Positions 2,223 through 17,561 of a stretch of DNA of 20,043 nucleotides are shown here, piece after piece. A model generated the notes under the pieces. That model was not told the DNA's origin and made no database searches. It was given only the letters and a program-made list of their open reading frames with translations. The stretch spans positions 1-20,043 of the IMG/VR virus record IMGVR_UViG_3300030108_002455; one strand, 5' to 3'. The DNA comes from a virus. Made by a program: the position numbers and the translations under genes. Position 1 is the stretch's first letter. Each line of letters begins with the position of its first letter.

Positions 2223-2382
2223 CTATAAACCAAGAAAATCTTTCTTGCTCCTGTTTTTGTTCGTTTAAAAATGTTGAGTTTAGCTGTTCTGTTATCAAAG
2301 CAATTGCTCTGTTAATTTGTTTTTGGTTAGAGACATCATACTCCTCTTTTGGTTCTGGTAATCTTACCACTATCTTAGCCAT
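2215..2382 (-). CDS. Mini-protein, 55 aa, conserved between nozzle and 110-aa gene
   Basis: Translation from the ATG at 2382 gives 55 residues: MAKIVVRLPEPKEEYDVSNQ at the start, a helical amphipathic middle (QINRAIALITEQLNSTFLNE), a Gln/Glu-rich run, and FSWFIGG at the end, then TAA at 2215-2217. It exactly fills the space between the 648-aa gene (TAATG overlap) and the GTG of the 110-aa gene (eight-base overlap). That fit, and my memory of short marine phage proteins with the same pattern (basic start, NQxQI helix, ERFxWF end), support a real gene. The predicted central helix could be a coiled-coil or docking helix. The function is unknown. Confidence 0.75.
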   Translation of the reverse strand: MAKIVVRLPEPKEEYDVSNQKQINRAIALITEQLNSTFLNEQKQEQERFSWFIGG

Positions 2383-4328
2383 TATCTTCTTCCATCAGGT
2401 TGTACATCTAGTTTAAAAGTACCAAATCTCCAAGATTCAGAAGAAGAATCATTCTCTATTTTTATATTAACAAATCTTCCTCTTGCTCTAGTATCCTTCT
2501 TATCAGTGCTAGATGTTATTGTAAAGGGACTTAAACTTGTAGTTGTTTCTGATTGTTGCGGATATCTTTTTACAGCTAGTGTTACTTTTGCATTACCTGC
2601 TAATGTTTTAAAATCAGGTACAAATCTTCTTACGGCTAAAAATATTTCACCTGCAATGGTTGGTCCTGTAGATCTACCTTGTGCATTTCGTTGTCTTGAT
2701 TGTAAATCAAAATCATACGATTTTACAAATGATGTAACTGTTGTTGTGCTACCATTAGGATTAATTTGATCAGTGCCTACCTCGTGTTCAAAAAATGTAG
2801 TTTGACCTAATCCTGATTGACCTACAATTACAGGAAAAGTACCTGATGCGTTATCGTCAAATTTAGTTGCAAAAGGTGTTGGATAAACTGTTGCATCAAT
2901 CCATGATGTTCTAGCCTCAGTTCCAATGTACCAAACACCACCTTTCATAGGTTCACCATAATTAAACACAACATACTTATTATTGTAATCAGATCCTGTT
3001 GATGGGTAATACCAAACAACTTCAGTAAACTGATTGTTTAATCCTGCGTTTACTTGTTGACCTTTTGTGGTGTCAGCTGAATCATATACAAAATCTTCTA
3101 CACTACATGGTAGTGATTTAACTGTACCATCAAACATAAAGAAACCATTTGGTGACATCCAAAATGCAGTACCATCTATTTCAACAGCAGCATTTTTACC
3201 TATTAATCCGCAGTTTGTACCAACTTGTTCAAATCCAAATGTAAATGGTGCACCAATAAATTTCATTGTATATAAAGCATTGTCAGTCCAAACCAAAATT
3301 ACTTCTTTTGTTTTTAGCGCGCCAATAATTTTTGTACCGTCTTGTAATCTTTGTGAACCTGCAGAATTAATTGCTGTTGGAACATAATCGTTTATGTCTT
3401 CTTGATCAGAAAATCTTATAAACATATCATCTTGTGTTGCAGTATTTCCGATTGTTGTTTCTGTTCCAAGATGAATTAAGTGTCTAGTTGTTGGAGATAC
3501 TAATGTAACCCTCGTTGCAGTAGGATTATTACCTGTTGCAAAATTAGTTGTTGTTGTCGATGCTCTGGTTGTTAGTCTTGCTGGGTCACCTGCGTTCCAT
3601 GTAAATGTTTTACCATTTGCAATGGTTGCAATTAATACTTCACCAAAATTACTTAATGACCATAAACCAGGTTCTAGTGATACGTCAGATGCAGGTGCAG
3701 CTTCACCCCAGTTACCTGTACCCCAACTATCAATACCCCAACCATAACCATATGATTGTTCTGCAGGACCAACTTGTTCATAAGGTTTAACTTGTAAACT
3801 ACCACCTGTTGAAACAGTTCCTCCAGCGTTACTAGCTTGTGTAATTGTAAATACACTTGTGCTTGTAATAGAAGTTACTTGAAATAATTTGTCTTCGAAG
3901 TCAGCGTTTTGATAACCTGTACCACCTGGTAAAGTTACATTGTCTAATAATACAATATCACCTGCTGATAAACCATGATTTGATTTTGTTATAGAACAAA
4001 CAGCTGAACCATTAGTTGTTGCAATAGTACAAGATGTCAATGTTGCTTTTAAAGGTGTAACATCATATAATTGTCCCTCAAAATATATAAGTAAAAATTT
4101 ATCTGTACCGATAGCAACGTATCGGTTACCATCTAGATCAACAAACGCAAATTGTCTTCTTGCAACACCTACAATTGTATCTGTAACAAGTGATGACCAT
4201 CCTCCTACTTTTTCTGGTAGGCCATATCTAAATCTTGTATTGTCACAATCAACCCATCTAAACTCTGCACCAGAGTCAGTGTTTTGTTTGTCTATTCCTG
4301 GTAAGACTTTGAAATCAATTAGAGCCAT
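2382..4328 (-). CDS. Probable tail nozzle / tail tubular protein B-like, 648 aa
   Basis: This is a 648-residue protein. Residues 1-45 contain PGIDKQNTDSGAEFRWVDCD and RFRYGLPEKVGGW, a start I know from marine podovirus tail proteins. Residues 50-95 and 220-480 contain many short beta strands ending in Gly-Asp or Asn-Gly turns (VDLDGNRYVAIGTDKFLLIY, VLIATIANGKTFTWN, VILVWTDNALYTMKF, GTAFWMSPNGFFMFDGTVK), as expected for a beta-propeller. An inserted region, 97-180, carries the NHGLSAGDIVLL motif (117-128). Residues 192-209 are aromatic and glycine-rich (SYGYGWGIDSWGTGNWGE). This pattern fits the tail tube/nozzle role of T7 gp12 or P22 gp10-like proteins, which form the distal tail hub and channel. 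Homology to a named family is recalled, not tested. The ribosome site AGGAG lies 9 bases before the ATG. Confidence 0.7.
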   Translation of the reverse strand: MALIDFKVLPGIDKQNTDSGAEFRWVDCDNTRFRYGLPEKVGGWSSLVTDTIVGVARRQFAFVDLDGNRYVAIGTDKFLLIYFEGQLYDVTPLKATLTSCTIATTNGSAVCSITKSNHGLSAGDIVLLDNVTLPGGTGYQNADFEDKLFQVTSITSTSVFTITQASNAGGTVSTGGSLQVKPYEQVGPAEQSYGYGWGIDSWGTGNWGEAAPASDVSLEPGLWSLSNFGEVLIATIANGKTFTWNAGDPARLTTRASTTTTNFATGNNPTATRVTLVSPTTRHLIHLGTETTIGNTATQDDMFIRFSDQEDINDYVPTAINSAGSQRLQDGTKIIGALKTKEVILVWTDNALYTMKFIGAPFTFGFEQVGTNCGLIGKNAAVEIDGTAFWMSPNGFFMFDGTVKSLPCSVEDFVYDSADTTKGQQVNAGLNNQFTEVVWYYPSTGSDYNNKYVVFNYGEPMKGGVWYIGTEARTSWIDATVYPTPFATKFDDNASGTFPVIVGQSGLGQTTFFEHEVGTDQINPNGSTTTVTSFVKSYDFDLQSRQRNAQGRSTGPTIAGEIFLAVRRFVPDFKTLAGNAKVTLAVKRYPQQSETTTSLSPFTITSSTDKKDTRARGRFVNIKIENDSSSESWRFGTFKLDVQPDGRR

Positions 4329-4339
4329 GGTCCGTGCTC

Positions 4340-5059
4340 CTATATTTTATCTTTGTAGACCCAGCCTCTTGTAGCATTAACATATACTAACGTAAAAGCC
4401 GAAGCGTTCGCTGAAACAACTAAATTAGAAGCAGCACCATTTATGTTAGATCCATTTCTTCCAACCGTTAAATTGTTAGATGCAAAATTGTTACCACTGT
4501 CTATAAATGTTACTTCATTTCCAATAACAGGTGATGCAGGTAGATTGATTGTAATAGGACCATTAATACCAGAGCCAGATGTATCAATCAAAACTTGATC
4601 ACCATTGACTGTTGTGTAAGTAGCAGTTGGTGTGTAGTAACCTTTTGTTTGTAGTTTTCCTGTAATATTTGTACCATCAGAATACAACACAGTTGTTGAT
4701 CCAACTGGTAATGTAAGTCCTGTTCCTGATACAGTTTTAACTGTTAGTGTATAATTGTTTGATGATCTAGTTGTAGCATCTTCTACTATAAATACTCTTT
4801 CTGCAGAGTCAGGCATAGTAACTGATCTGTTTGCAGTTAGTGTACCAGTTAGTTTGTAATATAAATTTTTACCATTTGCTGTAGCATGATTTGCTAAAGA
4901 TAAAGCAACATCACTAGATCCTACTGCTAATGATATATAACCTGATGCTGCTTGTTCTAATATTTGTAAATTTGTATTTGTGATTGTACCCCAGGTACCT
5001 GACTTTTCACCTGTCGTTATTAGTTCTAGTTTTAAATCATTTGATGTACTTGACGCCAT
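4340..5059 (-). CDS. Fibre-type tail protein, 239 aa
   Basis: This is a 239-residue protein. Residues 1-40 (SNDLKLELITTGEKSGTWG, then TNTNLQILEQAASG) match an attachment-type N-terminus that I know from many phage tail proteins. The rest is repetitive beta structure without cysteines: residues 60-140 (NLYYKLTGTLTANRSVTMP, YTLTVKTVSGTGLTLP) and a second module at 144-236 ending FTLVYVNATRGWVYKDK. The second module resembles the body of the 135-aa protein at 19424-19831 in the order of its motifs. It lies between the repeat proteins and the nozzle candidate, so it may link appendages to the tail tip; that is inference. A clear AGGAG ribosome site sits about 8 bases before the ATG. Confidence 0.65.
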   Translation of the reverse strand: MASSTSNDLKLELITTGEKSGTWGTITNTNLQILEQAASGYISLAVGSSDVALSLANHATANGKNLYYKLTGTLTANRSVTMPDSAERVFIVEDATTRSSNNYTLTVKTVSGTGLTLPVGSTTVLYSDGTNITGKLQTKGYYTPTATYTTVNGDQVLIDTSGSGINGPITINLPASPVIGNEVTFIDSGNNFASNNLTVGRNGSNINGAASNLVVSANASAFTLVYVNATRGWVYKDKI

Positions 5060-5068
5060 ATATTTCTC

Positions 5069-5320
5069 CTACGGATTATTCGGGTCGATAGGTACCCAAA
5101 CTCCAGTTGCATTTGGATCTATCGGTATCCATGATATCACATCTACCGTGTTAGTTGCAAGTTTTAAATGCTGTCCTGTTACAGGAACTGTAGTAATTAA
5201 ATCAATTGTTGTGTTCCCTATAGCAATATTCATTCGATTACCATTAGGTAATACTACAACATTTTGAATACCTACACCGGCGAATGTTGTTGCTGAAAAG
5301 GCTGTTGCTCCAAAAAACAT
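5069..5320 (-). CDS. Short 22-residue-repeat protein, 83 aa (two repeats)
   Basis: This is an 83-residue protein that looks like a short version of the neighbouring 217-aa protein. Both start with M(Y/F)FGATxF followed by a Phe and a VG, and both end with a WVPI motif. Between these caps this protein has only two repeat units, about residues 21-66 (NGNRMNIAIGNTTID, then VPVTGQHLKLATNTVDVIS). The cap WIPIDPNATGVWVPIDP repeats WxPID within itself. It overlaps the 217-aa gene by one base (TAATG) and has a GAGGA ribosome site. I recall similar short proteins in marine phages next to fibre genes. A solenoid or spacer role is inferred from the repeats. Confidence 0.7.
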   Translation of the reverse strand: MFFGATAFSATTFAGVGIQNVVVLPNGNRMNIAIGNTTIDLITTVPVTGQHLKLATNTVDVISWIPIDPNATGVWVPIDPNNP

Positions 5321-5973
5321 TAAGATCCTCTACTTGTTTGGATAGGTACCCAGGTCTGTGTAGCACCTGGTACAATACCATCCCATTGTTTTATATTAAC
5401 ATCAGTTGTACCGATTTCAAAACCTTCTCCAGAAGGTAAAGCTTTTGCTTTAGCTATCACAGTTACATCACTTGTACCAACGTTAAATCTCTTACCTGTT
5501 ACAATTGCTGTAGCATTTGCTTTAGCTGTAGCATTACCTAAAGCTATTTCAATACCATTACCTGTAACTGATAAATTACATTTACCAATAATAGTTACTT
5601 GGCCTGTTGCTAGATCTAAGCCATTACCTATAATAGTTGGTTTAGCACCTGCTGTTGTAGTAACAGTTCCATTACCTAATTCAAAACCATTACCTGTAAC
5701 CGGTACGTCTTTACCAATTGATGCTTCTGCATTACCGATACCTAGTTCTAATCCGTTACCAGATAATACTTCTTTTGCTTTACCAATAATAGTTACATTA
5801 CCGGTAGATATATTTACTCGTTTACCTGTGACTGATACATTTGCTTGACCAATAATTGTAGAGTTACCAATGCTAACATTGATCTGTGATCCAAGGACAT
5901 TGACAAATGCGTTAGGATTAAACCCTACATCTGAGAAGGGTGCGGCTGCAAAGGGTGTAGCACCAAAATACAT
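5320..5973 (-). CDS. Solenoid-like protein with eight 22-residue repeats, 217 aa
   Basis: This is a 217-residue protein. After an N-terminal cap (MYFGATPFAAAPFSDVGFNP) come eight back-to-back units of exactly 22 residues, starting at residues 24, 46, 68, 90, 112, 134, 156 and 178. The approximate consensus is V-x-V-T-G-N-G-h-x-h-x-h-G-N-h-T-h-I-G-K-A, with h hydrophobic. The C-terminal cap ends TQTWVPI. Strict spacing with alternating hydrophobic positions and Gly/Asn turns is typical of beta-solenoids or filament-like shafts. It directly follows the third appendage cassette and precedes its short paralogue. The ribosome site GAGG overlaps the end of the preceding gene and lies inside a short GC-rich inverted repeat (5974-5988). 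The function is unknown; a shaft or spacer is a structural inference. Confidence 0.7.
   Translation of the reverse strand: MYFGATPFAAAPFSDVGFNPNAFVNVLGSQINVSIGNSTIIGQANVSVTGKRVNISTGNVTIIGKAKEVLSGNGLELGIGNAEASIGKDVPVTGNGFELGNGTVTTTAGAKPTIIGNGLDLATGQVTIIGKCNLSVTGNGIEIALGNATAKANATAIVTGKRFNVGTSDVTVIAKAKALPSGEGFEIGTTDVNIKQWDGIVPGATQTWVPIQTSRGS
5377..5904 (-). repeat. Eight 66-bp coding repeats
   Basis: The DNA encoding the eight 22-residue units has a 66-base period and stays in frame throughout. On the plus strand the recurring trace is short blocks such as ttacctgttac or ttaccaataatagttac. The units differ at the DNA level, so this is an old coding repeat and not a recent microsatellite expansion. 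It is not CRISPR-like because no constant repeat/spacer pattern exists. Confidence 0.8.
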
Positions 5974-5979
5974 GCGAGA

Positions 5980-7017
5980 TTACCTCGCTGTTACTGGAAT
6001 GTTATTATTTCCTACCAGGGTTTGACCAAATGCAAAATAAAAATAATCACTTCCATCTGCATTTATACCACCACCATTGTATCTAATTTTAAAACCATTA
6101 CTTAAAAAATCCATCCAACCTGCTGATAAACCTGTATAATCTCCACCGGAACTATCTGCTTCTAATCTATGCACTTCAGGATTATTTGCATCTCTTTTAT
6201 TATCAAACATGTGCCAACCATCAGAACCATCTTTTCTAGTAACAACAAAAGCAGGTTTAAATCCAGTATAAACAAAAGGTCCATTATTACTTCCATCGCC
6301 TCTAAAACTACCAAATTTACTAAAACCAGTTTTTTCTGCAAAAGCATAAGCTATATAACTTCCACTGCTTCCATTTGTTCTACCATTTGTACCAACGCTC
6401 ATTACAGAAGTTGTTGGTGCTGTATCATTAAATACAGTTGAGTTTGTCGATGGTGCACTAGTATTATTTAAATCTGCTTTTTTTGTTGCACCTAAAAAAG
6501 AATGATAGATTGTCCAATCATCTGCACTATCTAATCTTTTATACATTATCATTTTTGGAGCAGCACCTAGTCCATGTCCTACAGTAGCAGCACTTCCTGT
6601 TCCTGTATATTTTGAAATTGAAAATCCGGCTGTTGTATTAACAGAAGTATAAGTAGTGTTTATTGTCCCGTCTGTATTTGACGTACCTTGTCCAGCGCCT
6701 GCTTTCCAGTTCCATGATACGAAACTATTTCCATTACCATTCATGTTAGCATTATCTCCAAGAGTAAAGCCATCTGTTCCAAAAGCTGTTAAACCAGCTG
6801 ATTGTGTTTGTTCTGGAGAAGTTGCACTACTTTCAAGATATTTAGTTACACCTCTTACAGCATCATATAAATTATGGTTTCCAGAAGCATCTCTACGCTT
6901 TAACCAAGTAAAGTCTGGCTGATGGCCAACTCCAGTAATAGCATTAGTTCCACCATTACCTGTGTATGTTACTGTATTAAAATAAGCTGTATGTTTATTA
7001 ATTGTTGTATAAGCCAT
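5980..7017 (-). CDS. Three-repeat appendage protein (DUF7483-type), copy C, 345 aa
   Basis: This is a 345-residue paralogue of the proteins at 9544-10614 and 12767-13783. Three units can be aligned by eye: residues 18-106 (YTGNGGTNAITGVGHQPDFT to SWNWKAG), 137-228 (YTGTGSAATVGHGLGAAPK to YIAYAFAEK) and about 238-335 (FVYTGFKPAFV to YFYFAFGQ). Each contains Y/F-x-G-x-G, then xGxxPxxxxxK/R, a central GF motif (except in the second unit) and a final aromatic A/W-F/N-A/K motif. The end is NNIPVTAR. I recall this family as DUF7483, found in marine phage tail regions; its molecular function is not known to me. It shares one base with the preceding SPRY gene (TAATG) and has an AAGGA site about 12 bases before the ATG. 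A surface-contact role is inferred from its companions. Confidence 0.75.
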   Translation of the reverse strand: MAYTTINKHTAYFNTVTYTGNGGTNAITGVGHQPDFTWLKRRDASGNHNLYDAVRGVTKYLESSATSPEQTQSAGLTAFGTDGFTLGDNANMNGNGNSFVSWNWKAGAGQGTSNTDGTINTTYTSVNTTAGFSISKYTGTGSAATVGHGLGAAPKMIMYKRLDSADDWTIYHSFLGATKKADLNNTSAPSTNSTVFNDTAPTTSVMSVGTNGRTNGSSGSYIAYAFAEKTGFSKFGSFRGDGSNNGPFVYTGFKPAFVVTRKDGSDGWHMFDNKRDANNPEVHRLEADSSGGDYTGLSAGWMDFLSNGFKIRYNGGGINADGSDYFYFAFGQTLVGNNNIPVTAR

Positions 7018-8375
7018 TATTCGTTTAATCCTTTTGTTGATAAAGCTGTAAATCCACTTGGGACATCATACTCAAAAAGTCCAATATTGCTAGCATTAGT
7101 TCCTGCACTAGATATTGCTGTTGTTGCAAAATATCCATTACCAAAATTATACCTACTAATTCCAGTATTACCACCATAACCCCTCATAGCATGAGCAGGC
7201 ATATAATATTCTCCGGCTGTTAAATTTGTAAATGCTGCTGTAGAGTTTGCATAAGTTTGATCTGCTCCACCAGAACCATTAGCCCATTGACCATTTCTAC
7301 CAAATGTTATTTTATTGTTGTCCAAATCTAATGCGATCATCATAATATCATCTGTGCTAAAGCCACCCATGTAAGCTGATTGAGCATCGTCTCCCGCTTT
7401 ATTACCATTAGAAAATTGAACACTTTTACCTCCATATGGTGTGCCTTGTAAACCATGACCTGTGCTTACATTTGAAAAATTTGATGATGCTCTAGCCACA
7501 CCTACTTGATCTATTTCTGCTAAGTCTGCAGCTTTTACTTCCCAATAAAATTTACCAGAATTTGCTGCTAAAGTAGAACCTATATAACTATAATCACTTC
7601 CATTGTTTCCACCACTTGCAGTATTATTACCTTGTAATATAGATATGTATCTTGTGTTTATTGGATTTAATGTACAAAAAATATTACTTGGACAATCTTC
7701 TGTTTTTGTAAGTGTACCATTTCCTGAACTCCAATTATTAGAGTTAGGTGATTCATCTGTTAATGAATTACCATTTTTTAAAATAAAGAAACCATTAGTT
7801 CCATAAGATACACTAGGGGTCGTATTTATTTTCCATTCTCCAGTTGTGCTATCAAAAGAACCGAAGTCTGATGCTTGATATAATTGATTATCACAAAAGT
7901 GAATATGAGAAAGCGAACCATCAAAATATTGTGTATTATTTCCACTTCCAATTTTCCAAGTTTGAGAATTATTACCAAAGTTAAATAAACTTTCTCTGCC
8001 TGATGTAGGATTTGTATCTGTTGCAAATGATGTTTCCTCCACACCATTAATCCACATTTTCATTCTATCTCCTGCTGTACTATTTGAACTATCCCATCTT
8101 AAAACAATATGATACCAACCATTACAATCTCTAAAAACTCTATTAGTTTGTAATCTACCACCATTAGAATATGAACCTGCTTGATAACTCCACCAATCTA
8201 ATTTATCATCAGAAGCACCAAATCTAACAACATCTTGATTATTGTTATCTAAATGACAAGTTGAAACAACTTGGTCGCCATTAGTTATAGTTCCTCTTTT
8301 AAGCCAAAAACTCCAAGTCCATTTTGTTCTTGTTCCACTTGAGGCATAAGCTTTACTGATATTTGTACTAGCCAT
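7017..8375 (-). CDS. LamG-like plus SPRY-like appendage protein, copy C, 452 aa
   Basis: This is a 452-residue protein with two concanavalin-like beta-sandwich modules. Residues 17-200 resemble LamG/pentraxin-type domains: WTWSFWLKRG, LQTNRVFRDCNGWYHIVLRWD, then MKMWINGVEETSF and IGSGNNTQYFDGSLSHIHF. Residues 262-415 resemble SPRY: ANSGKFYWEVKAADLAEIDQ, then DDIMMIALDLDNNKITFGRNG. The tail, 410-452 (NFGNGYFATTAISSAG, then LFEYDVPSGFTALSTKGLNE), is shared with the two paralogues and is typical of marine phage SPRY proteins. Such folds often bind glycans or proteins, so receptor binding is plausible but not shown. No signal peptide or membrane segment is present. AGGAGGA lies about 13 bases upstream, and the start overlaps the previous stop. 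Confidence 0.8.
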   Translation of the reverse strand: MASTNISKAYASSGTRTKWTWSFWLKRGTITNGDQVVSTCHLDNNNQDVVRFGASDDKLDWWSYQAGSYSNGGRLQTNRVFRDCNGWYHIVLRWDSSNSTAGDRMKMWINGVEETSFATDTNPTSGRESLFNFGNNSQTWKIGSGNNTQYFDGSLSHIHFCDNQLYQASDFGSFDSTTGEWKINTTPSVSYGTNGFFILKNGNSLTDESPNSNNWSSGNGTLTKTEDCPSNIFCTLNPINTRYISILQGNNTASGGNNGSDYSYIGSTLAANSGKFYWEVKAADLAEIDQVGVARASSNFSNVSTGHGLQGTPYGGKSVQFSNGNKAGDDAQSAYMGGFSTDDIMMIALDLDNNKITFGRNGQWANGSGGADQTYANSTAAFTNLTAGEYYMPAHAMRGYGGNTGISRYNFGNGYFATTAISSAGTNASNIGLFEYDVPSGFTALSTKGLNE

Positions 8376-9541
8376 TAGTTAAACTGTGCTCCTCCTGTTG
8401 CACCGTGAGATATTGTAATTGTAAACTGACGGTCCGCTGTTTGGGCCTGTGCATCTGTTGCTCGTATAGTAAACGTATACGTTGTCGTAGCAGTTGACCC
8501 TGATTCAGTACCAGTGATCGCACCAGTACTTGTATTTAAACTTGCACCACCTGGAAGTGATCCAGATTGTACCGCAAAAGTTGTAGCATTTGTTGCAGCT
8601 ACTGTAAAGTTGATAGTTCCCGCAGCCGCTACTGTTCCTAAACTGCCTGCCGCAGTTGTCCATGCAGGTGCATCAGATACAGTTAATAAAGCTGTTCCAG
8701 ATCTACATGCAATACCATCGTTATTTTCTAATCTTAAAAAGTATGTGCCATCTACAGATATTGTAAATGTTGCAACAACTGTTGTTGCATTTGTAAATGA
8801 TACTGAATCTGCAGTGACTATTGCACCAGTAGATGAATTGATTGCATCAACAAAAGGTGGTGTTGAACTGTCTTTAAAATTTGTACCTGTAAGTGTTACA
8901 GCTGTTTGTGTGTTTTCAATAACACTTGGACTAATAGATCCTATAGTTGGAAACGTAATACTATCTGCAAAAGATAATGTCCCTGATCCGTTGGTCGCGA
9001 TTACTTGATTGGCTGTACCATCAGCTGTTGGTAATTTTAAAAATGCACCTGTGTTAATTGTAGATGAATTATGGTTTATAAAATTACCCATGTTCGCATG
9101 TGATGAACATTGGTAGTATAAAATGTTTGGTGTATCATTATCGACTGCAATAGTTGTGTGTGCACCAGCATTACCTGGTGTGCCAGATGTAGTTACACCT
9201 GTTGTAAATTGTGTTTGCTTTGATACGTTGTTATAAAATCTTAATGGGTGACCAGAGTTAGATGCATCTGATTGATCAAACTTGTAGTAATATGGTTTAC
9301 CTGTATCGTTACCTTTTAATTCAATGATAGGTGTTTGAATACCATTTATAAAATAACCATTAGAACTTCCAACATTGTGATATGGAGAGGCTGCAGTTTT
9401 AGATGCAACAGTTACTGTAAATACTTTTGGACTTGATGAAGAAAAGTAATCTCCTTCAAATCCTCCACCACCAGAATCTTTACTGATGATCAGGTTACCC
9501 TGTTGATCTTGGATCGTATCTACTTTTAATATACTACTCAT
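8375..9541 (-). CDS. Cupredoxin-like plus IPT/TIG plus Ig-like appendage protein, copy C, 388 aa
   Basis: This is a 388-residue protein about 125 residues longer than its two paralogues. The N-terminal tag SSILKVDTIQDQQGNLIIS fits marine phage fibre starts. Residues 38-160 form an extra domain: KVFTVTVASK, then YYYKFDQSDASNSGHPLRFY and YYQCSSHANMGNFI. H98, C145, H148 and M151 match the ligand order of type-1 copper proteins. Residues 165-192 are a linker of a type I know from phages (LKLPTADGTANQVIATNGSG). An IPT/TIG-like domain (200-288, SPSVIENTQTAVTLTGTNF) and a He_PIG/cadherin-like Ig domain (290-377, ending TYTFTIRATDAQAQTADRQF) follow, then GGAQFN. Copper binding is inferred from motif order only. 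The ribosome site is weak (AAGA). Confidence 0.75.
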   Translation of the reverse strand: MSSILKVDTIQDQQGNLIISKDSGGGGFEGDYFSSSSPKVFTVTVASKTAASPYHNVGSSNGYFINGIQTPIIELKGNDTGKPYYYKFDQSDASNSGHPLRFYNNVSKQTQFTTGVTTSGTPGNAGAHTTIAVDNDTPNILYYQCSSHANMGNFINHNSSTINTGAFLKLPTADGTANQVIATNGSGTLSFADSITFPTIGSISPSVIENTQTAVTLTGTNFKDSSTPPFVDAINSSTGAIVTADSVSFTNATTVVATFTISVDGTYFLRLENNDGIACRSGTALLTVSDAPAWTTAAGSLGTVAAAGTINFTVAATNATTFAVQSGSLPGGASLNTSTGAITGTESGSTATTTYTFTIRATDAQAQTADRQFTITISHGATGGAQFN

Positions 9542-9543
9542 AA

Positions 9544-10614
9544 TTATCTTGCCGTTGCCGGTATACTTTGTCCTACGTTAGCTACTAATGGCTCAGCTGC
9601 AAATGCCAAGTAACAATATGTATTTCCATTTCCATTGACATCATTATTAGCCATTCTAAGTTTAAAACCATTTGATACTAAATCTATTTTATCATCTGCA
9701 TCTTCTGCATCGTTATTGTTAGGATGTAAATCATCGTTATCAACATTATACCCTTCTCTTTTATTATCATAAATATACCAATCATCAGATGCATCAGTTC
9801 GTTTGATCAGAACAAAAGCAGGTTTAAATCCTGTGTAAATAAATGCTCCATCTGCGTTGTCATTACCTGTATATGCACCAGACTGGCTAAATCCTTTTAC
9901 GTTTGCAAAACAGTAGGCTACATATTGTTGACTACCATTATTTAAATCATCATTATCACCAAGAGTAAATACTGTGCTTGTTGGAGTAGTGTTGTACCAA
10001 TATGCTGAATCTGTATTGTAGTAATCATTTGAATTTAGTCTTAAAGCTCTAGTGTTAGCAGAAGGCACACCTACATTATAAACTCTCCAATCTTTTACAA
10101 CTCCATCTAGTTTTTTAATTATTATACATTTTGGAACTGCACCAAGATGATGAGGTATAGTATGACCGTTTGAAGAATTACCACCATATTTAATAATAGA
10201 AAATCCGGCTGTAGTATTTACAGAATAAGTGTATGCTTTGCCTGTACCTGAACCAGTGGTTGTACCAGAACCAGTTGTTCCTGCTCTCCAATTCCATGCT
10301 ACATAAGTTCTTCCGATACCACTTACTGCATCTCCAGCTGTTACTGTAAAACCATCTGTACCAAAAGCACTTAAATATCCATTACTGTAGTTAGTAGTTT
10401 CTATATCATTTGTGTTTGAAAATAATGTTTTATTAACACCTCTTAGTGAATCTGTTAAAATATGAGGAAAAGCTGTACCACCATGACTTCTAGTTTTTAT
10501 CCAAGTAAAGTCTGGTTGAAAACCTACACCTGTTACTGATTTTGCAGCATCAGTGCCTGTATATAAAACTGAATTCATATATGAACTAGATTTTGAAATT
10601 CCTGAGTATGCCAT
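9544..10614 (-). CDS. Three-repeat appendage protein (DUF7483-type), copy B, 356 aa
   Basis: This is a 356-residue paralogue of the copy A and C proteins. The repeat units fall at residues 18-111 (YTGTDAAKSVTGVGFQPDFT to VAWNWRAG), 143-237 (YGGNSSNGHTIPHHLGAVPK to YVAYCFANV) and 248-342 (YTGNDNADGAFIYTGFKPAF to YCYLAFAAEP). The end is SIPATAR. The second unit differs most from the other copies (tandem Asn/Tyr-rich stretch 194-209). An acidic, Asn-rich insertion lies at 289-309. Cysteines are C163, C235 and C334. No enzyme motif is visible. The gene starts nine bases after the preceding gene, with AGGA before the ATG. It is probably part of a host-contacting appendage; this is inferred from cassette context and not from a known activity. 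Confidence 0.75.
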   Translation of the reverse strand: MAYSGISKSSSYMNSVLYTGTDAAKSVTGVGFQPDFTWIKTRSHGGTAFPHILTDSLRGVNKTLFSNTNDIETTNYSNGYLSAFGTDGFTVTAGDAVSGIGRTYVAWNWRAGTTGSGTTTGSGTGKAYTYSVNTTAGFSIIKYGGNSSNGHTIPHHLGAVPKCIIIKKLDGVVKDWRVYNVGVPSANTRALRLNSNDYYNTDSAYWYNTTPTSTVFTLGDNDDLNNGSQQYVAYCFANVKGFSQSGAYTGNDNADGAFIYTGFKPAFVLIKRTDASDDWYIYDNKREGYNVDNDDLHPNNNDAEDADDKIDLVSNGFKLRMANNDVNGNGNTYCYLAFAAEPLVANVGQSIPATAR

Positions 10615-10622
10615 ATTATATC

Positions 10623-11972
10623 CTATCCATAAGTATTTATATTTTTTGTATTTAATGCGTAATATCCAGATGGTACATCATATTCAAATAAAGATCCATT
10701 ACCATTTGAACCTGCAGAAGTTATAGCTGTTGTACCAAAAAATCCATTACCAAAATTTACTGAAAATTGTTCGTTAGCATAATATTGAGAAAAAGCAGGT
10801 ACATACGTTGTATTAGCTGCTATTATCATTGCACCAGTTCCTGTACTACCAGATGTTGGTACACCACTATTTTGATATGTTCCATTTTTAGAAAAATACA
10901 TTTTAGCATTATCTAAATCCATAGCAACACCTATAATATCTCCTGCTGTCCAACTATTACCAAAACTAAATGTTTGATTATTATTACCACTATTACCACT
11001 TTGTGCATGATAACCATATCCTCTTCCTTGTTTATAAAATTGTTGGTTATTAGCCTCATTTGTCATTTGTTCTATATCAACAATTCCAACCCAAAAATTA
11101 TTTGGGTCTGAGTTTTGTATTTGGTCAACTTTCATTTCAAAATAATATTTTCCACTAGATGCACCTAGTGTTCCATAAAAACTTCTCCAAGCATTAGATG
11201 TAGGTGTGCTTGCTTTTGATAAAGCACCATTTTCTATGGTTACTTGAGATGCAGAATATGTGAGTTGATTTATTACAGAGGAAACATTTGACGGTGTATC
11301 AAGTGCTTGTTTTAAATTTCCAGCAACTGTCCAGTTATTTGTATTAGTAGAACTATCTAAACCTAAATTACTGGAGTTTTCAAATTTTATATGTGCACCA
11401 TTAGTACCCCAAGTAACACCAGATGGTGTTTTAAATTTCCAAATACCAGATGTAGAATCTGTTTCACCAAATACAGTAGGAGCTAATTGTTGTCCATCTA
11501 CAAATGCAACATGACTCATGTAACCATTAAAAAAATTTCCAATACCCACTTGACCTATGTAGTGTGCAGTTGATGCTTTATTTATAAATGTATCTTGGTT
11601 TTGACTTGGATAAGTTGTAGTTCTATCCCAAGTATATTGTTCTCCATTTATATATAATTTTACTCTGTTAGCTGCTGTGGCTTGAGTTGTATCAGTAGCT
11701 ACTACTATATGATACCAAGCTGAAGTATCTCTAAATAATCTGTTAGTTGCTAAACTTGCTTTTATAGCACCACCTTGATAATCATAATAAAAGAAATAAT
11801 TATCAGGATGAAAAGATAGTTGTGCATAATTATTTCCATCTGTATATGCTGCAAACACATCCATATAAACACCTGAACTAGATAATTTAGATCTTTTTAT
11901 CCAAGCGCTCCAAGTCCATTTATCAGCGTTAGTTGGTGTTCCTAATGTTCTACTTAATGCACTATTTGCCAT
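10623..11972 (-). CDS. LamG-like plus SPRY-like appendage protein, copy B, 449 aa
   Basis: This is a 449-residue protein. Residues 18-200 are LamG-like: WTWSAWIKRS, LATNRLFRDTSAWYHIVVAT, DTTQATAANRVKLYINGEQY, then YIGQVGIGNFFNGYMSHVAF. Residues 265-408 are SPRY-like: ASSGKYYFEMKVDQI, NNFWVGIVDIEQ and WTAGDIIGVAMDLDNAKMYF. The C-terminal tail is VNFGNGFFGTTAITSAG, then LFEYDVPSGYYALNTKNINT. The phrase DTTQAT is shared with copy A, which fits a common ancestor for the cassettes. The protein has no cysteines. It lies nine bases after the Ig gene, with AGGA upstream. Both domains are ConA-like sandwiches that commonly bind sugars or peptides; a ligand cannot be named from sequence. Confidence 0.8.
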   Translation of the reverse strand: MANSALSRTLGTPTNADKWTWSAWIKRSKLSSSGVYMDVFAAYTDGNNYAQLSFHPDNYFFYYDYQGGAIKASLATNRLFRDTSAWYHIVVATDTTQATAANRVKLYINGEQYTWDRTTTYPSQNQDTFINKASTAHYIGQVGIGNFFNGYMSHVAFVDGQQLAPTVFGETDSTSGIWKFKTPSGVTWGTNGAHIKFENSSNLGLDSSTNTNNWTVAGNLKQALDTPSNVSSVINQLTYSASQVTIENGALSKASTPTSNAWRSFYGTLGASSGKYYFEMKVDQIQNSDPNNFWVGIVDIEQMTNEANNQQFYKQGRGYGYHAQSGNSGNNNQTFSFGNSWTAGDIIGVAMDLDNAKMYFSKNGTYQNSGVPTSGSTGTGAMIIAANTTYVPAFSQYYANEQFSVNFGNGFFGTTAITSAGSNGNGSLFEYDVPSGYYALNTKNINTYG

Positions 11973-11981
11973 AATATTATC

Positions 11982-12767
11982 CTAGTTAAACTGTCCTGAG
12001 TTATTTGCTTGTGTTGTTACAGTTATAGTAAACGCACGATCCGCAGTCTGCCCTTCAGCGTCTGTGGCTCGTATCGTAAAACTATATGTTGTATCAGATG
12101 TAGCACCAGATTCAGTTCCAGTCAATGTAGATGAACCTGATCCACTATTTAATGTCATACCACCTGGAAATGTTCCAGATACTTTTGCCATTGATACTGA
12201 GTTAGTTGCTGTTAATGTAATTGTTCCAAAGCTTGCTCCAGCAGAAAATGAACCTAATGATCCTGCTGAAGTTACCCACGCTGGTGCATCAGAAACCGTT
12301 AATACAGCACCTGTTTGTACTGCATTACCATCTGGGTTTTCAATATATAATTTATAAGTTCCGTCAACAGGTAAAGTAAATTTAGCTGTAATACTTGATG
12401 CAGATGAAAATGATACTTCATCAGCTACAACAGTTGCTCCTGTAGAATTATTGATAGCTGTAACCAAAGGTACAGATACAAAGTTACCACCAGCTATTGT
12501 ACAAGTCGTTTGTGTGTTTTCAATTGTTGATGGTGTAATAGATGAAAAAGTTGGTCTTGTTTCTGTAGTTAAAGTAATAGATCCACCAAGCGCTACTGCT
12601 TGACCGTTGATTGTAATTTGTCCTGAACCTGTAAGAGCTGAGTTTGCAATGTTCTGTGTACCAGCAAATGTTGCACCTGCTGGAATAGTTATAGTATCAC
12701 CACTATCTCCTAGCTGTACATTTGTCCCGGATCGTGGACTTATTTTATTTACTTTTACTTCACTCAT
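11982..12767 (-). CDS. IPT/TIG plus Ig-like appendage protein, copy B, 261 aa
   Basis: This is a 261-residue protein. Residues 1-35 (MSEVKVNKISPRSGTNVQLG, GDTITIPAGATF) are a start I know from marine phage fibres. Residues 47-65 (GSGQITINGQAVALGGSIT) resemble a shaft linker. Residues 73-158 are an IPT/TIG-like domain (SSITPSTIENTQTTCTIAGG to YIENPDGNAVQTGAVLTVSD). Residues 160-250 are a He_PIG/cadherin-like Ig domain ending TTYSFTIRATDAEGQTADRA. The end NNSGQFN is nearly shared with copies A and C. Ig-like domains on phage particles are known as weak carbohydrate-binding or structural spacer modules. The start overlaps the three-repeat gene of copy A (TAATG), whose last codons supply the AGGAG site. 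Confidence 0.8.
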   Translation of the reverse strand: MSEVKVNKISPRSGTNVQLGDSGDTITIPAGATFAGTQNIANSALTGSGQITINGQAVALGGSITLTTETRPTFSSITPSTIENTQTTCTIAGGNFVSVPLVTAINNSTGATVVADEVSFSSASSITAKFTLPVDGTYKLYIENPDGNAVQTGAVLTVSDAPAWVTSAGSLGSFSAGASFGTITLTATNSVSMAKVSGTFPGGMTLNSGSGSSTLTGTESGATSDTTYSFTIRATDAEGQTADRAFTITVTTQANNSGQFN

Positions 12768-13783
12768 TATTCTCCTACCGCTGGTATGTTATTCGTTCCT
12801 ACAATCGGGTTTTCTGCAAACGCCATGTAGATATATGGTTTTCCGCTTGCATTAAAAGCGTTATTATTACTTCTAGGTTTAAAACCATTAGAATAAAAAT
12901 CAATATCTACAGAACCTTCAGAATTATTTAAATTAGGATATAAAACTTTATTTAAAGGATTACCCCCATTAGTAGTTCTTTTAAGATCATGCATGTGCCA
13001 ATTATCAGTATCATTAGTAACCTTAAAAATAACAAAAGATGGTTTAAATCCTGTATAAATAAATGTTCCATTAGCATCACCATTTCCTGTATAATTTCCA
13101 AATTTTGAATATCCTTTTTTTTCTGCAAAACAATAAGCTATTAATTGATGAGTATTTCCAAAACCTAAATTAGTAAATGTTGTAGATGTTGAAAAACCAT
13201 AAGTTCCAAGAGTTAAATCTGCTTTAGCATTAGTACCACTTAATATTAAATAATCTAATGTATCATCAACATATTTATATACCCAATACCAAGGGCCACT
13301 ACCATCTGTTCTTTTATAAATAATTATTTTTGGTGCAACACCTAGTCCATGTCCAATACCATCACTATCTGAACCATTAGATGTCCATTTTACAATACTA
13401 AATCCTGCTGTTGTGTTTGCAGATACAGTAGAAGCTATGTCTCCATCACTATTAGCTGAACCTGAACCACCTGCTTTCCAATTCCATCCAACTATATTAT
13501 TTCCATTGCCATTAGTGTCACCTCTATTTCCAACATAAAAACCATCTGATTGAAAAGTAAAATCTGCACCAATATCTATTTCAGCTTCATCAGTGTTAGT
13601 TTTTAATCTTTTTGACTGACCTCTTACCACATCATACATATTGTGGTTATTATTAGCTGACCTATTTTTTATCCATGACCAATCTGGTTGAAATCCTACT
13701 CCAGTGATGGTTTGAGTTGTAGAACCATTACCCACATATGTTACTGTATTAAAATGTAATCCTGGTTTATTTATCTGTGCCAT
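12767..13783 (-). CDS. Three-repeat appendage protein (DUF7483-type), copy A, 338 aa
   Basis: This is a 338-residue protein in which the threefold internal repeat is clearest. The units are residues 16-105 (YVGNGSTTQTITGVGFQPDW to VGWNWKAG), 133-222 (WTSNGSDSDGIGHGLGVAPK to LIAYCFAEK) and 231-326 (YTGNGDANGTFIYTGFKPSF to IYMAFAENP). The distance from the first motif to the middle GF motif is 65, 63 and 69 residues. The end NNIPAVGE differs from the TAR ending of copies B and C, and its codons contain the AGGAG ribosome site of the next gene. I recall the family as DUF7483 (name from memory). GAGGAG in the last codons of the SPRY gene serves as its own ribosome site. A receptor-contact role is inferred from context. 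Confidence 0.75.
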   Translation of the reverse strand: MAQINKPGLHFNTVTYVGNGSTTQTITGVGFQPDWSWIKNRSANNNHNMYDVVRGQSKRLKTNTDEAEIDIGADFTFQSDGFYVGNRGDTNGNGNNIVGWNWKAGGSGSANSDGDIASTVSANTTAGFSIVKWTSNGSDSDGIGHGLGVAPKIIIYKRTDGSGPWYWVYKYVDDTLDYLILSGTNAKADLTLGTYGFSTSTTFTNLGFGNTHQLIAYCFAEKKGYSKFGNYTGNGDANGTFIYTGFKPSFVIFKVTNDTDNWHMHDLKRTTNGGNPLNKVLYPNLNNSEGSVDIDFYSNGFKPRSNNNAFNASGKPYIYMAFAENPIVGTNNIPAVGE

Positions 13784-15159
13784 TAACTATACTCCTCTGC
13801 GTTTAATGATTTAGTACACAATGCTCGATAGCCCGCTGGGACATCGTATTCAAAAATACCTTCCCCATCATCTGGATTTTCCGCTGATGCTACAGCAGTT
13901 GTTCCAAAATATCCATTACCAAAATTAAAATCAAATTTAGATGGAGATGAAGTTCCTGTATCATCTGTTTGTGCAAAGAAATAAGCACCATCATTAGTGG
14001 CACTAGCAGCAATTATTGAAACTGCTCCTGTTCCTGAAGCACCAGAAGTTGGGTTTCCACTATTTTGCCAAGCATCATTATTTTTTCTAAAATATAATTT
14101 ATTATTATCTAAATCTAATGCCATGCTTATAATATCTCCTGTAGTATATGTTGTGTTGTACCCAGATAAATCTCCACCTCCATTACCTGCTACTGCTCCA
14201 TTAGATGAATAATAACCCCAACTATGAGTAGCGTTTAAAATACTACCATTTGTTCTAGCTAAATTTGCAGAATCTCCTGTTATACCAATGACATTTCTTG
14301 AATAAGTATTATCTACTGTTGCTTTTGCTTCACAATAATATTTTCCAGATGTCATTCCTAAAGTTGTACAACCACCCCATTTATAACTACCTGATGAGTT
14401 GTTTGTTATTGAAGTAGTATTAGCATTTGAAAAAGTTGGACCATTACTTGTTGGAACAAGTAAAGGATTTAATGTAGCAAAAACATTACTAGGTGTATCT
14501 TTATTTTGTATAATAGTACCTGTAGTTGTTAAATTATTAGATCCTGCAGAATCTAATCCCATGTTTGCTGAGTTATCAAATTTTAAAAAGAATCCATTTG
14601 TTCCATAAGTTACCGTTGGTGCAGTTTTTGGTTTCCAAATTCCTGTTGTTGCATCTGTTTCACCAAAAGTTGATGGTGTATAGGCTGTTCCATCTACATA
14701 ATGAAAATGTGCCATTTCTCCATCCCAATGATGGGTATTTGTGCTTGCTCTTCTTCCAACTGTATGAGTTCCACTAGCAAGGTTAAAAAGAGTATCATAG
14801 TTTTGAGCTGGATATGAAGGTGTACCACTGCCACCATCATCCCATTCTGTTATTTGTACATTATTTATCCAACATTTAAACCTATTTGTATCTGTGGCTT
14901 GTGTTGTGTCTACTGCAGCTACCATGTGATACCAACCATTTGTATCTCTTAACTGTAGTTTTGAACGAAATTGTGATCCCATATAACAATCAACTTTATT
15001 GTCTTGTAACCAAAACCCATGATCTCCACCAGAGGCTGCTGTTAAAGCTTGATAATTACCTGATCCTATACTTGGATTTGATACTTTAAACCAAAAAGAA
15101 AAAGTATATGTTTTTCTGTTTCCTGATGTAAAAGTTCGTGATAAGTGTGCTGATGCCAT
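13783..15159 (-). CDS. LamG-like plus SPRY-like appendage protein, copy A, 458 aa
   Basis: This is a 458-residue protein. Residues 17-200 are LamG-like: TYTFSFWFKVSN, LQLRDTNGWYHMVAAVDTTQ, NRFKCWINNVQITEWDDGGS, then HTVGRRASTNTHHWDGEMAH. Residues 258-415 are SPRY-like: MTSGKYYCEAKATVDNTYSR, WGYYSSNGAVAGNGGG, TGDIISMALDLDNNKLYFRK. The tail FNFGNGYFGTTAVASAENPD, then IFEYDVPAGYRALCTK, matches the paralogues. Acidic loops such as EWDDGGSG (105-112) could bind calcium, as in some LamG domains; that is speculative. AGGAGG lies upstream, and the start overlaps the Ig gene stop. The likely role is a lectin-type tip or side domain on a tail appendage. Confidence 0.8.
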   Translation of the reverse strand: MASAHLSRTFTSGNRKTYTFSFWFKVSNPSIGSGNYQALTAASGGDHGFWLQDNKVDCYMGSQFRSKLQLRDTNGWYHMVAAVDTTQATDTNRFKCWINNVQITEWDDGGSGTPSYPAQNYDTLFNLASGTHTVGRRASTNTHHWDGEMAHFHYVDGTAYTPSTFGETDATTGIWKPKTAPTVTYGTNGFFLKFDNSANMGLDSAGSNNLTTTGTIIQNKDTPSNVFATLNPLLVPTSNGPTFSNANTTSITNNSSGSYKWGGCTTLGMTSGKYYCEAKATVDNTYSRNVIGITGDSANLARTNGSILNATHSWGYYSSNGAVAGNGGGDLSGYNTTYTTGDIISMALDLDNNKLYFRKNNDAWQNSGNPTSGASGTGAVSIIAASATNDGAYFFAQTDDTGTSSPSKFDFNFGNGYFGTTAVASAENPDDGEGIFEYDVPAGYRALCTKSLNAEEYS

Positions 15160-15950
15160 TAACAGAATCCTCCTGAGTTATTAATACCAACTTCAGACGT
15201 TAAAGTAAACGCTTGATCCGCTGTTTGACCTTGAGCATCTGTAGCTCGAATTGTAAATGAATACTGTGTTTCACTTGAAATTGTTGGCATTGTTCCTGAT
15301 AATACTGCTCTATATGTGGAGCCACTTGGATTTGTTGTTGATCCAATAGTTAAACCAGCAGGCAGCGCTCCTGAAATAGGAGAAGTTGCAATTGTTGCAG
15401 CACTATCTGCTGTTACGTCTAAGTTTGCCGAATAAGATGCTCCAGATTCTGTATTTGACAAACTTGTTGTGGTCCACACTGGACCATCTGATACTGTTAA
15501 ATCTGTACCGCTTCTAGCTGCATTACCATCTGGGTTTGTAACTAAAATTCTAACATTTTGTCCATTTGTTAAACCAGCTGTACCTGTTGTAAAACTTATT
15601 GTTGTTGCACTTGTAAATGTAACAGATGTTGCAGATTGAAAAGCACCGTTTGCTCTTTGTAATTCTACTTTTGGTATTGATGCAAAATTTTGTCCTGTAA
15701 CAGTTATTGTACCACCCACATCTGCATCTATAACTGTTGGTGTAAAACTAGATATAACTGGTTGTGTTTCAGTTGGTATTGTAGCTGAACCACCTAGGTT
15801 TACAGCGACACCATTAATCGTAATTTGTTCATTTGCTAAAGCAGAATTTGGTATAACATCATTTTGAAATACTAAACTATCACCAGCTTCACCAACTGTT
15901 AAGTTAGTTCCTGATTGTGGTGCAATAGTATCTACTTCTATTTTACTCAT
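15159..15950 (-). CDS. IPT/TIG plus Ig-like appendage protein, copy A, 263 aa
   Basis: This is a 263-residue protein. The start MSKIEVDTIAPQSGTNLTVG is a common N-terminal tag of marine phage fibres. Residues 35-58 (NSALANEQITINGVAVNLGG) match copy B. Residues 64-154 are IPT/TIG-like (PVISSFTPTVIDADVGGTIT to VTNPDGNAARSGTDLTVSD). Residues 157-252 are a He_PIG/cadherin-like Ig domain with SGALPAGLTIG and YSFTIRATDAQGQTADQAFT. The first part of the Ig domain (160-225) differs from the other copies, while the final strand is nearly identical, which suggests mosaic exchange or relaxed loops. The end NNSGGFC has a terminal cysteine absent from copies B and C. The start overlaps the 152-aa gene stop. 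Confidence 0.8.
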   Translation of the reverse strand: MSKIEVDTIAPQSGTNLTVGEAGDSLVFQNDVIPNSALANEQITINGVAVNLGGSATIPTETQPVISSFTPTVIDADVGGTITVTGQNFASIPKVELQRANGAFQSATSVTFTSATTISFTTGTAGLTNGQNVRILVTNPDGNAARSGTDLTVSDGPVWTTTSLSNTESGASYSANLDVTADSAATIATSPISGALPAGLTIGSTTNPSGSTYRAVLSGTMPTISSETQYSFTIRATDAQGQTADQAFTLTSEVGINNSGGFC

Positions 15951-16408
15951 TATATAATTACCAAATTACCTGTTACTGTTACAGTTCCTGAAACTGTTAC
16001 TGGCCCTGCTAAAACTCCTGAGTCCATTGTTTGAACATCAGAAATTGTTGACGAGTGTGTTGTTACATAAGTTGTAGCTGTCATACTTGCAGATGGTGCA
16101 CGTTTTGCAGGATAAGTACAAAATACAGTTTTAGTTCCTGTTGTAAAATTCACCGCGTTATCTGAGTTTGAAGAGGAGATAATGGTATCTCTAGAAAGTG
16201 TATCAGGTGATGCATCTGTTACAGTTCCGATACCTACTTCAAATTCAGAAGTTCCATCGTGTGAAATACAGTAGAACGTACTGTTTGTAGTTCCAATACC
16301 AGCAACAAAAGTTTCAAAACCTGTTTCAGCTGTAGCTGATAGGTTTATAGTTCCTGTGCCAGTAGACGTACTCGTCTGTTTAACTCTATCGTTAAGTACA
16401 AAAGCCAT
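15950..16408 (-). CDS. Small tail/fibre-base protein, 152 aa
   Basis: This is a 152-residue protein. Residues 1-110 (MAFVLNDRVKQTSTSTGTGT, GFETFVAGIGTTNSTFYCIS, FEVGIGTVTDASPDTLSRDT, IISSSNSDNAVNFTTGTKTV) match a beta-rich module that I know from many phages as a stand-alone protein or the N-terminus of tail fibres. Residues 111-152 are a Thr/Ser/Val-rich tail with short alternating strands (GPVTVSGTVTVTGNLVII). It sits just before the first appendage cassette, so it may be the adaptor that fixes appendages to the tail; that is inference. AAGGA lies about 10 bases before the ATG. Confidence 0.7.
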   Translation of the reverse strand: MAFVLNDRVKQTSTSTGTGTINLSATAETGFETFVAGIGTTNSTFYCISHDGTSEFEVGIGTVTDASPDTLSRDTIISSSNSDNAVNFTTGTKTVFCTYPAKRAPSASMTATTYVTTHSSTISDVQTMDSGVLAGPVTVSGTVTVTGNLVII

Positions 16409-16889: not shown

Positions 16890-17561
16890 TTATGGTGATG
16901 GTGATTTTAAAGGAGTACGAATAACACCATCTTGGTATTCGTCCCGGCGTCTACGACCTTGTTGTTCGATCGCGTACGATTGAAGAGCTTTTTGATAAGC
17001 CTGCATGTAGTATTGTAACATATCTGCAGGTCCTTTCAAGTATCCATATGCTTCTACCAGACAAGCATACAAAAGTAAATCCTGATATTTATTAGATATA
17101 TAAGTTCCAGAAGTGCTTGCTGCTCCAGATGTTAAGGTGTCTGGTTGTTTTACATACGCTAAAGTTATTTCATATGTGCTATCTGGTGTTGGTGCAACCA
17201 CCCAAAAATTAGCATCCCAGTTTCCATAATACTTTGGAAAGCCAGATTGCGTGCTTGGAGTGTCATAATATTCTGCCATGTAACTAGTTTCTTTCTTTTG
17301 TAAATATACTTGTTTGTTGTTAGAATCTTTTAATTGAACGTATCTAATAAATCTTAAATCAGATGGAATAGTGACATATCTGTTACCAGCTTGTAAGTTT
17401 GATGTTGCATAAAATCGGTTGTCATCAGAGTCTGCTTCTCTATATATTTTGTTTTCAGCATTCTTAATCATTGTGTTAAGAACTGAATTAGATAATACAG
17501 CACTGTCTACCTCTGTATAATCTCGGATATCATCTTGTAGATTAGCTAAAGTATAAGCCAT
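16890..17561 (-). CDS. Probable phage adaptor protein (head-tail connection), 223 aa
   Basis: This is a 223-residue protein. The helical N-terminus (MAYTLANLQDDIRDYTEVDS, then LNTMIKNAENKIYREADSDD) matches adaptor proteins that I know from SU10/phiEco32-like and marine podoviruses, which join the portal ring to the tail. A beta-rich middle follows (RYVTIPSDLRFIRYVQLKDS, WVVAPTPDSTYEITLAYVKQ). The C-terminal helix, about residues 155-200 (NKYQDLLLYACLVEAYGYLK, MLQYYMQAYQKALQSYAIEQ), is followed by a basic Arg patch (GRRRRDE). The order long helix, beta core, long helix fits that family. The start is shared with the stop of the 44-aa gene, whose end supplies a GGAG ribosome site. The family assignment is from memory and is fairly firm. 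Confidence 0.75.
   Translation of the reverse strand: MAYTLANLQDDIRDYTEVDSAVLSNSVLNTMIKNAENKIYREADSDDNRFYATSNLQAGNRYVTIPSDLRFIRYVQLKDSNNKQVYLQKKETSYMAEYYDTPSTQSGFPKYYGNWDANFWVVAPTPDSTYEITLAYVKQPDTLTSGAASTSGTYISNKYQDLLLYACLVEAYGYLKGPADMLQYYMQAYQKALQSYAIEQQGRRRRDEYQDGVIRTPLKSPSP

Follow-up and report, generated by a model that had tools for sequence, protein, structure and literature searches.

A probable three-socket tail-fibre rack in a short-tailed marine phage, with exchange of single domains

Three cassettes in one locus

The window analysed here is the whole IMG/VR virus record IMGVR_UViG_3300030108_002455 (20,043 bases), whose large genes are all carried on the minus strand. Three cassettes lie head to tail on this strand (5980-15950), between the genes of a SU10-type tail adaptor and a nozzle-type tail protein. 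Each cassette contains an Ig gene, a LamG-SPRY gene, and a DUF7483 gene, in this order. Single putative receptor-binding domains of these proteins are swapped between near-identical relatives, which suggests a modular, mix-and-match attachment apparatus.

The nine open reading frames (ORFs) were found where a preliminary description of the sequence had placed them, with no other gene between: Ig proteins of 263, 261, and 388 aa, LamG-SPRY proteins of 458, 449, and 452 aa, and DUF7483 proteins of 338, 356, and 345 aa. All the shared motifs quoted there are present in the nine proteins. Slot 1 comprises the adaptor Ig1 (15159..15950), with the anchor MSKIEVDTIAPQSGT.. at residues 1-28 (15867-15950), the LamG-SPRY protein Lam1 (13783..15159), whose start shares one nucleotide with the Ig1 stop, and the three-repeat protein Duf1 (12767..13783). 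Slot 2 comprises the adaptor Ig2 (11982..12767), with the anchor MSEVKVNKISPRSGT.. (12684-12767), Lam2 (10623..11972), and Duf2 (9544..10614). Slot 3 comprises the adaptor Ig3 (8375..9541), with the anchor MSSILKVDTIQDQxGNLIISK (9458-9541), Lam3 (7017..8375), and Duf3 (5980..7017). Genes overlap by one base at 15950, 15159, 13783, 12767, 8375, and 7017; the remaining cassette joints are 2-10 bases apart. This spacing, within and between the sets, points to co-translation.

The copies share 40-49% (Ig), 37-46% (LamG-SPRY), and 43-49% (DUF7483) protein identity, and 51-62% nucleotide identity. A triplication made by assembly, which the preliminary description had named as a possible objection, is ruled out by this divergence. 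Contrary to that description, similarity does not extend along the full length of Ig3, which carries about 120 additional N-terminal residues. The divergence was said to lie in loops; it is not limited to them, as entire domains are swapped (see below).

Domain families were assigned by Pfam profiles. Ig1 contains TIG and He_PIG domains, and Ig2 and Ig3 contain He_PIG, all above the cut-off. In the predicted model of Ig3, residues 194-291 align with a TIG-like domain (best Z 13.4, root-mean-square deviation (rmsd) 2.2, 92 aligned), and residues 290-380 form a cadherin-like domain. The SPRY domain (PF00622) was recognized in Lam2 (residues 275-409; 45.3 bits against a cut-off of 26.3); Lam1 (23.6) and Lam3 (24.3) fall slightly below. 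SPRY also matched in 30 of 37 relatives at E<=0.01, and the profile matches solved SPRY domains. The LamG halves of the window are below the Pfam threshold for Laminin_G_3 (PF13385), which was recognized in 19 of the 37 aligned relatives. DUF7483 (PF24299) matched all three copies over almost the full profile (357-372 bits against 27, E 1e-107 to 1e-111). The model of Duf3 (predicted local distance difference test, pLDDT, 92.9) has three beta repeats, with boundaries at about 105-130 and 228-248, which coincide with the breakpoints inside the gene. A fold search with this model gave no convincing solved relative (best Foldseek E 0.03; best VIA Z 5.4, rmsd 5.3, 118 aligned); such weak matches are no demonstration of a new fold. 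LamG and DUF7483 regions occur in a single coding sequence in Roseobacter phage CRP-406 and Synechococcus phage S-SRM01, and phrog_19943 is a LamG/DUF7483 fusion. Judged from these fusions, the LamG-SPRY and DUF7483 proteins are one functional unit.

The additional part of Ig3 is a beta domain (residues 38-160, 9062-9430) with the motif GHPLRFY ... YYQCSSHANMG. Its residues H98-P99 and C145-x2-H148-x2-M151 are invariant in 40 of 40 relatives, and are arranged like the ligands of a type 1 copper (cupredoxin) site; copper binding is putative. Related domains are present in other phage tail protein families. The profile of this domain gave no match among solved chains.

Slot-specific anchors

Relatives were collected from viral contig scans, a search of phage records, and a scan of a genome collection, giving more than 500 loci (L numbers). 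The cassettes are bounded upstream by p152 (15950..16408) and downstream by the short-repeat protein p217 (5320..5973). Both flanks are present in 29 contigs, including the window. Of these, 27 have three fibre-start genes and 2 have four. The order is the same in nearly every contig, and each start gene carries an N-terminal anchor, about 28 residues long, that is specific to its slot. The anchors read MS(K/Q/T)(I/L)EV(D/N)..PQSGT in slot 1, MSE(V/I)KVNKISPRSGT in slot 2, and MSSILKV(D/N)TI.. in slot 3. Three LamG-SPRY-DUF7483 cassettes were counted in 16 of the 29 contigs, two in 12, and one in 1; where there are fewer cassettes, other fibre types occupy the remaining anchors. In L447 and L295, one anchored start is hidden by ORF tiling in the anchor reading, but is visible in the cassette count. 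Three contigs (L292, L298, and L379) have variant second and third anchors (MVSTLKVNT(I/L)KK.. and MSEIKVNTLKKYDG..), and in L292 and L298 the long adaptor is in the middle slot.

A query with p152 alone gave a sample that was not selected for cassettes. The slot 1 anchor directly follows p152 in all 76 readable contigs, and LamG-SPRY is the next gene after the slot 1 anchored gene in 34 of 60 complete ones. The same anchor may also carry an unrelated body: in the slot 2 gene of L269, residues 1-28 are 96% identical to those of Ig2, and residues 46-200 are at background (27%). The slot 2 anchor was likewise found on unrelated bodies in L231 (93%) and 023Pt_psg01 (89%). As read from these alignments, the anchor is separable from the body, and the anchors carry several kinds of payload, of which the cassette is one. 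At the sequence level only, the locus thus has the mark of a tail with multiple receptor-binding proteins, each of which has a conserved N-terminal anchor of its own.

Other slot 1 payloads were also observed. In one type, as in L263 (2863-3279), the anchored protein has 138 aa, and the next gene encodes a protein of 356-449 aa that starts with MANYKDLRY... Further slot 1 fibres (280-500 aa) precede a gene of about 75-130 aa, which could be an assembly factor. In L397 (2419-15845), the neighbours are distant from those of the window (p223 41%, p149 44%), yet Ig1 and Ig2 are 86% and 94% identical; the adaptors themselves thus move between diverged backbones.

Conservation from adaptor to tip

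Adaptors are conserved at 80-95% per slot. The best relatives of the window adaptors at the same slot reach 89-94%, whereas those of LamG-SPRY reach at most 55-76% and those of DUF7483 at most 55-66%. Each gene has closer relatives in other phages (Ig1 93%, Ig2 94%, Ig3 89%, Lam2 76%, Duf2 66%) than in the neighbouring cassettes (37-49%), which is in part the outcome named in the preliminary description as contrary to its proposal.

In trees of 156 cassettes, with slots defined by the anchor, the minimum of slot-label changes was 14 (Ig body), 31 (LamG-SPRY), and 52 (DUF7483), against a shuffled mean of about 73. The three gene trees conflict, so duplication of whole cassettes, for which matching trees were to be the sign, is not borne out. 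Labelling slots by the best adaptor-body match was rejected, because slot 1 adaptors with Ig2-like bodies were mislabelled; the anchor-defined repeat gave the same ranking. The identities of LamG, SPRY, and DUF7483 are nearly equal in same-slot and different-slot pairs, except for the LamG-SPRY linker and the SPRY end.

The preliminary description had also proposed a reservoir for recombination built into the genome. For 124 cassettes, the set included a mate from the same genome; the nearest module lay in the cassette's own genome in a single case, which does not agree with this idea. An apparent enrichment of such cases was due to near-identical contigs from other samples, except for one pair. 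Judged by the nearest modules, exchange is mostly between phages, and the copies within one genome are not each other's source.

Domain-bounded replacements

LamG, SPRY, and DUF7483 repeats are replaced singly between phages that are otherwise 97-99.8% identical. L267 and L406 differ only in the slot 1 SPRY (44% nucleotide identity), with flanks of 99.8% and 99.4%. L250 and L338 differ in slot 1 only in LamG (Lam7-217) and DUF7483 repeat 2 (Duf141-235). In slot 3 of L263 and L262, LamG and SPRY differ and the linker between them is conserved. Relatives of the window itself (L010, L444, and L445) share 95-98% protein identity with it from p217 to p648 (89-95% for p83), whereas their identity falls to 40-42% for Lam3 and 47-60% for Duf3. 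The locus therefore shows the replacement between otherwise near-identical phages that marks a hypervariable region.

Breakpoints in the LamG-SPRY and DUF7483 genes lay in junction zones in 29 of 30 de-duplicated cases; the zones make up 37% of the length and were drawn after viewing the pooled breakpoint histogram, so that the p-value is descriptive. Transfer between slots was also found. The slot 3 DUF7483 of L258 (149-239) is 98.5% identical to that of L126 slot 1, and the slot 3 SPRY and DUF7483 of L437 are 95-97% identical to those of L338 slot 1.

Proposed explanation and alternatives

The locus probably encodes a tail-fibre rack with three sockets, belonging to a short-tailed marine phage and diversified by single-domain exchange. 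In functional terms, the most likely reading is an apparatus for adsorption to several receptors, which is diversified as phages exchange domains with each other. Each socket would be set by the slot-specific N-terminal anchor of the first gene, the Ig adaptor. By analogy with SU10, the three anchors may each have a docking place of their own on the adaptor or nozzle; the Ig proteins might be the stalks, and the LamG-SPRY and DUF7483 proteins, translated adjacently, the distal receptor-binding tips. A single virion probably carries all three sets in the adaptor/nozzle region of its tail, and could thus engage several surface glycans. The adaptors would keep their slot, while LamG, SPRY, and DUF7483 repeats would be exchanged singly through homologous recombination between co-infecting phages. 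The crossover sites might be the conserved junctions: the Lam start, the LamG-SPRY linker, the stretch from the SPRY end to the DUF7483 start, and the DUF7483 repeat boundaries. Tip domains could then change one by one, with the sockets remaining intact. The preliminary idea of several coexisting host-recognition fibres with exchange of recognition parts agrees with these sequence comparisons.

It is quite possible, although this is put forward tentatively, that the locus is a combinatorial array. Three sockets would carry independently exchangeable domains (LamG, SPRY, and up to three DUF7483 repeats), the junctions would be standing crossover sites, and occasional socket-to-socket transfer would add to the variation. 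The population might in this way sample very many multi-receptor combinations.

Several points weigh against the three-socket explanation. Anchor docking, the display of all three fibres on one particle, carbohydrate binding, and the crossover mechanism are steps that we infer, and sugar binding is putative, from fold classes. The contigs are not independent, and most were retrieved by the cassette genes. The post hoc choice of the junction zones also counts here, though the zones match Pfam and model domain edges. The conserved junctions may partly reflect protein constraint, as their synonymous identity is 0.69-0.75, against 0.82-0.85 for adaptors in the same pairs. Finally, the cassettes of HTVC103P-type pelagiphages are carried on other anchors, and a cassette therefore does not need the three anchors of the window.

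Among the alternatives, the one with most weight, though still unlikely, is that an ancient triplication of anchored fibres gave three sets that form one long or branched fibre, with the slots docking on each other. The fixed order and number of slots, the dense packing with 1-nt overlaps at many joints, and known multi-protein fibres such as gp12 and gp13 of SU10 (PMC9509320) are in its favour. Payload types, however, change slot by slot with the other slots unchanged; this favours independent attachment, but is not decisive. A recent tandem triplication of one cassette in this lineage, with later divergence, could explain why the same gene order, similar lengths, and common motifs occur three times. 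It is very improbable, because the copies are only 37-49% identical while relatives of the adaptor slots elsewhere reach 89-94%, the trees of the three genes conflict, and the slot-specific anchors are already present in distant phages.

The junction-bounded swaps might also be metagenome assembly chimeras, made where assemblers jump at conserved islands between variable genes; every single-domain swap pair does consist of metagenome contigs. Against this improbable explanation, the pairs come from different samples and are 97-99.8% identical on both sides, and the hypervariable region of the isolate Skadi-1 (13,646-15,713; PMC10504331) lies on this gene pair. Two cultured isolates, HTVC103P and HTVC104P, likewise combine conserved adaptors with replaced payloads, and this contrast is thus not an assembly artefact: the genes around their two cassettes are mostly 88-98% identical and the adaptors 69 and 92%, but LamG-SPRY is 45-47% and DUF7483 42-57% identical. 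Least credible of all is that the variation comes from a diversity-generating retroelement, or from phase-variable expression in which only one set is active at any time. Such systems are generally known to target groups of paralogous receptor-binding genes (PMC10743442), but the replaced stretches here are whole domains at 44-59% nucleotide identity, rather than clustered point changes limited to a variable repeat. The genes also overlap or nearly touch, promoter-like sites in the window are not above chance, terminator-like sites are few, and inverted repeats are weak.

Flanking genes and host

In the downstream direction, the gene order is small structural genes, the SU10-type adaptor, p149, p152, the nine cassette genes, p217, p83, p239, and the 648-aa nozzle-type protein p648. 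The adaptor (16890..17561) matches PF24175 (90 bits against a cut-off of 27). The nozzle-type protein (2382..4328) matches, over part of its length, profiles of the solved chains 8zkk_O (nozzle gp16, E 7e-9) and 9nwi_Y (E 3e-17). The tail-fibre-like p239 (4340..5059) has a collar domain common to the alternative fibres. A short repeat motif, VTGNGxxxxxG, was found in both p217 and p83 (5069-5973); p217 homologues have about 277 aa in many relatives, so the repeat number seems variable.

A near-identity search of phage records gave no close relative of the window. Its nozzle gene has the closest relatives from these records in 023Pt_psg01 and in two Pelagibacter phage isolates, HTVC027P and HTVC023P; the host is therefore probably SAR11 or a similar bacterium. 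In the genome collection, nozzle-gene relatives (79-83%) include L566 and L567, in Pelagibacteraceae and Flavobacterium assemblies; the hosts may be diverse, or one of these may be a stray particle.

The closest cultured relatives infect SAR11, a group that ranks with the most abundant bacteria of the ocean. Should the rack function as proposed, the host range of such phages would be set by several lectin-like domains together, and would shift through exchanges of one domain, which pairs of natural genomes reveal directly. For SAR11, the arms race at the cell surface could then be tested through domain-ligand pairs, the matches required, and the turnover of combinations. The anchors also offer a simple means of locating fibre slots, and of counting them, in the genomes of uncultured phages.

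Comparison with known systems

Fibre modularity, multi-fibre tails, and hypervariable pelagiphage lectin genes are already known (PMC10684548, PMC3909814, PMC10504331). The three-anchor rack, the map of swaps at the level of domains, and the separability of anchor and payload between fibre types appear to be new in the searched literature, whose coverage is incomplete.

In the tail of SU10, a Kuravirus, long fibres composed of proximal and distal trimers attach to six docks of the adaptor ring, and the nozzle bears short fibres (PMC9509320). The window shares SU10-type adaptor and nozzle-type genes, and the SU10 fibres are likewise built of separate proximal and distal proteins. However, the fibres of SU10 are of two types, a long and a short one, and lack the Ig/LamG/SPRY/DUF7483 sets. 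In HTVC023P and 023Pt_psg01, the p152 and p217 boundaries, similar slot anchors, and tandem fibres are present, but the payload is a single Gly-rich fibre protein instead of LamG-SPRY and DUF7483. Such fibres, ending in GGSGIVIIRYKF or alike, number three in 023Pt_psg01 (L004, 11090-15297) and four in HTVC023P (L006, 8235-13931). Tail fibres are unmentioned in the genome paper on the HTVC023P type.

The HTVC103P-type pelagiphages (MN698242, MN698243) have the same Ig, LamG-SPRY, and DUF7483 cassettes with conserved adaptors and replaced payloads. They differ from the window in having two slots, other anchors (MPYIGRTPANAAIT.. and MAYIGQNLDRFS..), and different morphogenesis genes. Also comparable are marine metaviromic islands and the hypervariable pair of lectin genes in Polarivirus skadi (PMC10504331, PMC3909814). 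In Skadi-1, genes 45 and 46 code for a DUF7483 and a LamG-SPRY protein, and the published region falls on these two genes (13,353-15,730), for which low virome read recruitment was reported (PMC10504331). Unlike the window, Polarivirus skadi has a single pair and no triple set, and the published accounts describe no slots, exchange units, or breakpoints. Recent domain exchange is also a feature of the domain shuffling described for phage receptor-binding proteins (PMC10684548). Compared with that shuffling, exchange at the locus of the window goes on side by side in three fixed slots, and its crossover zones recur at the domain junctions.

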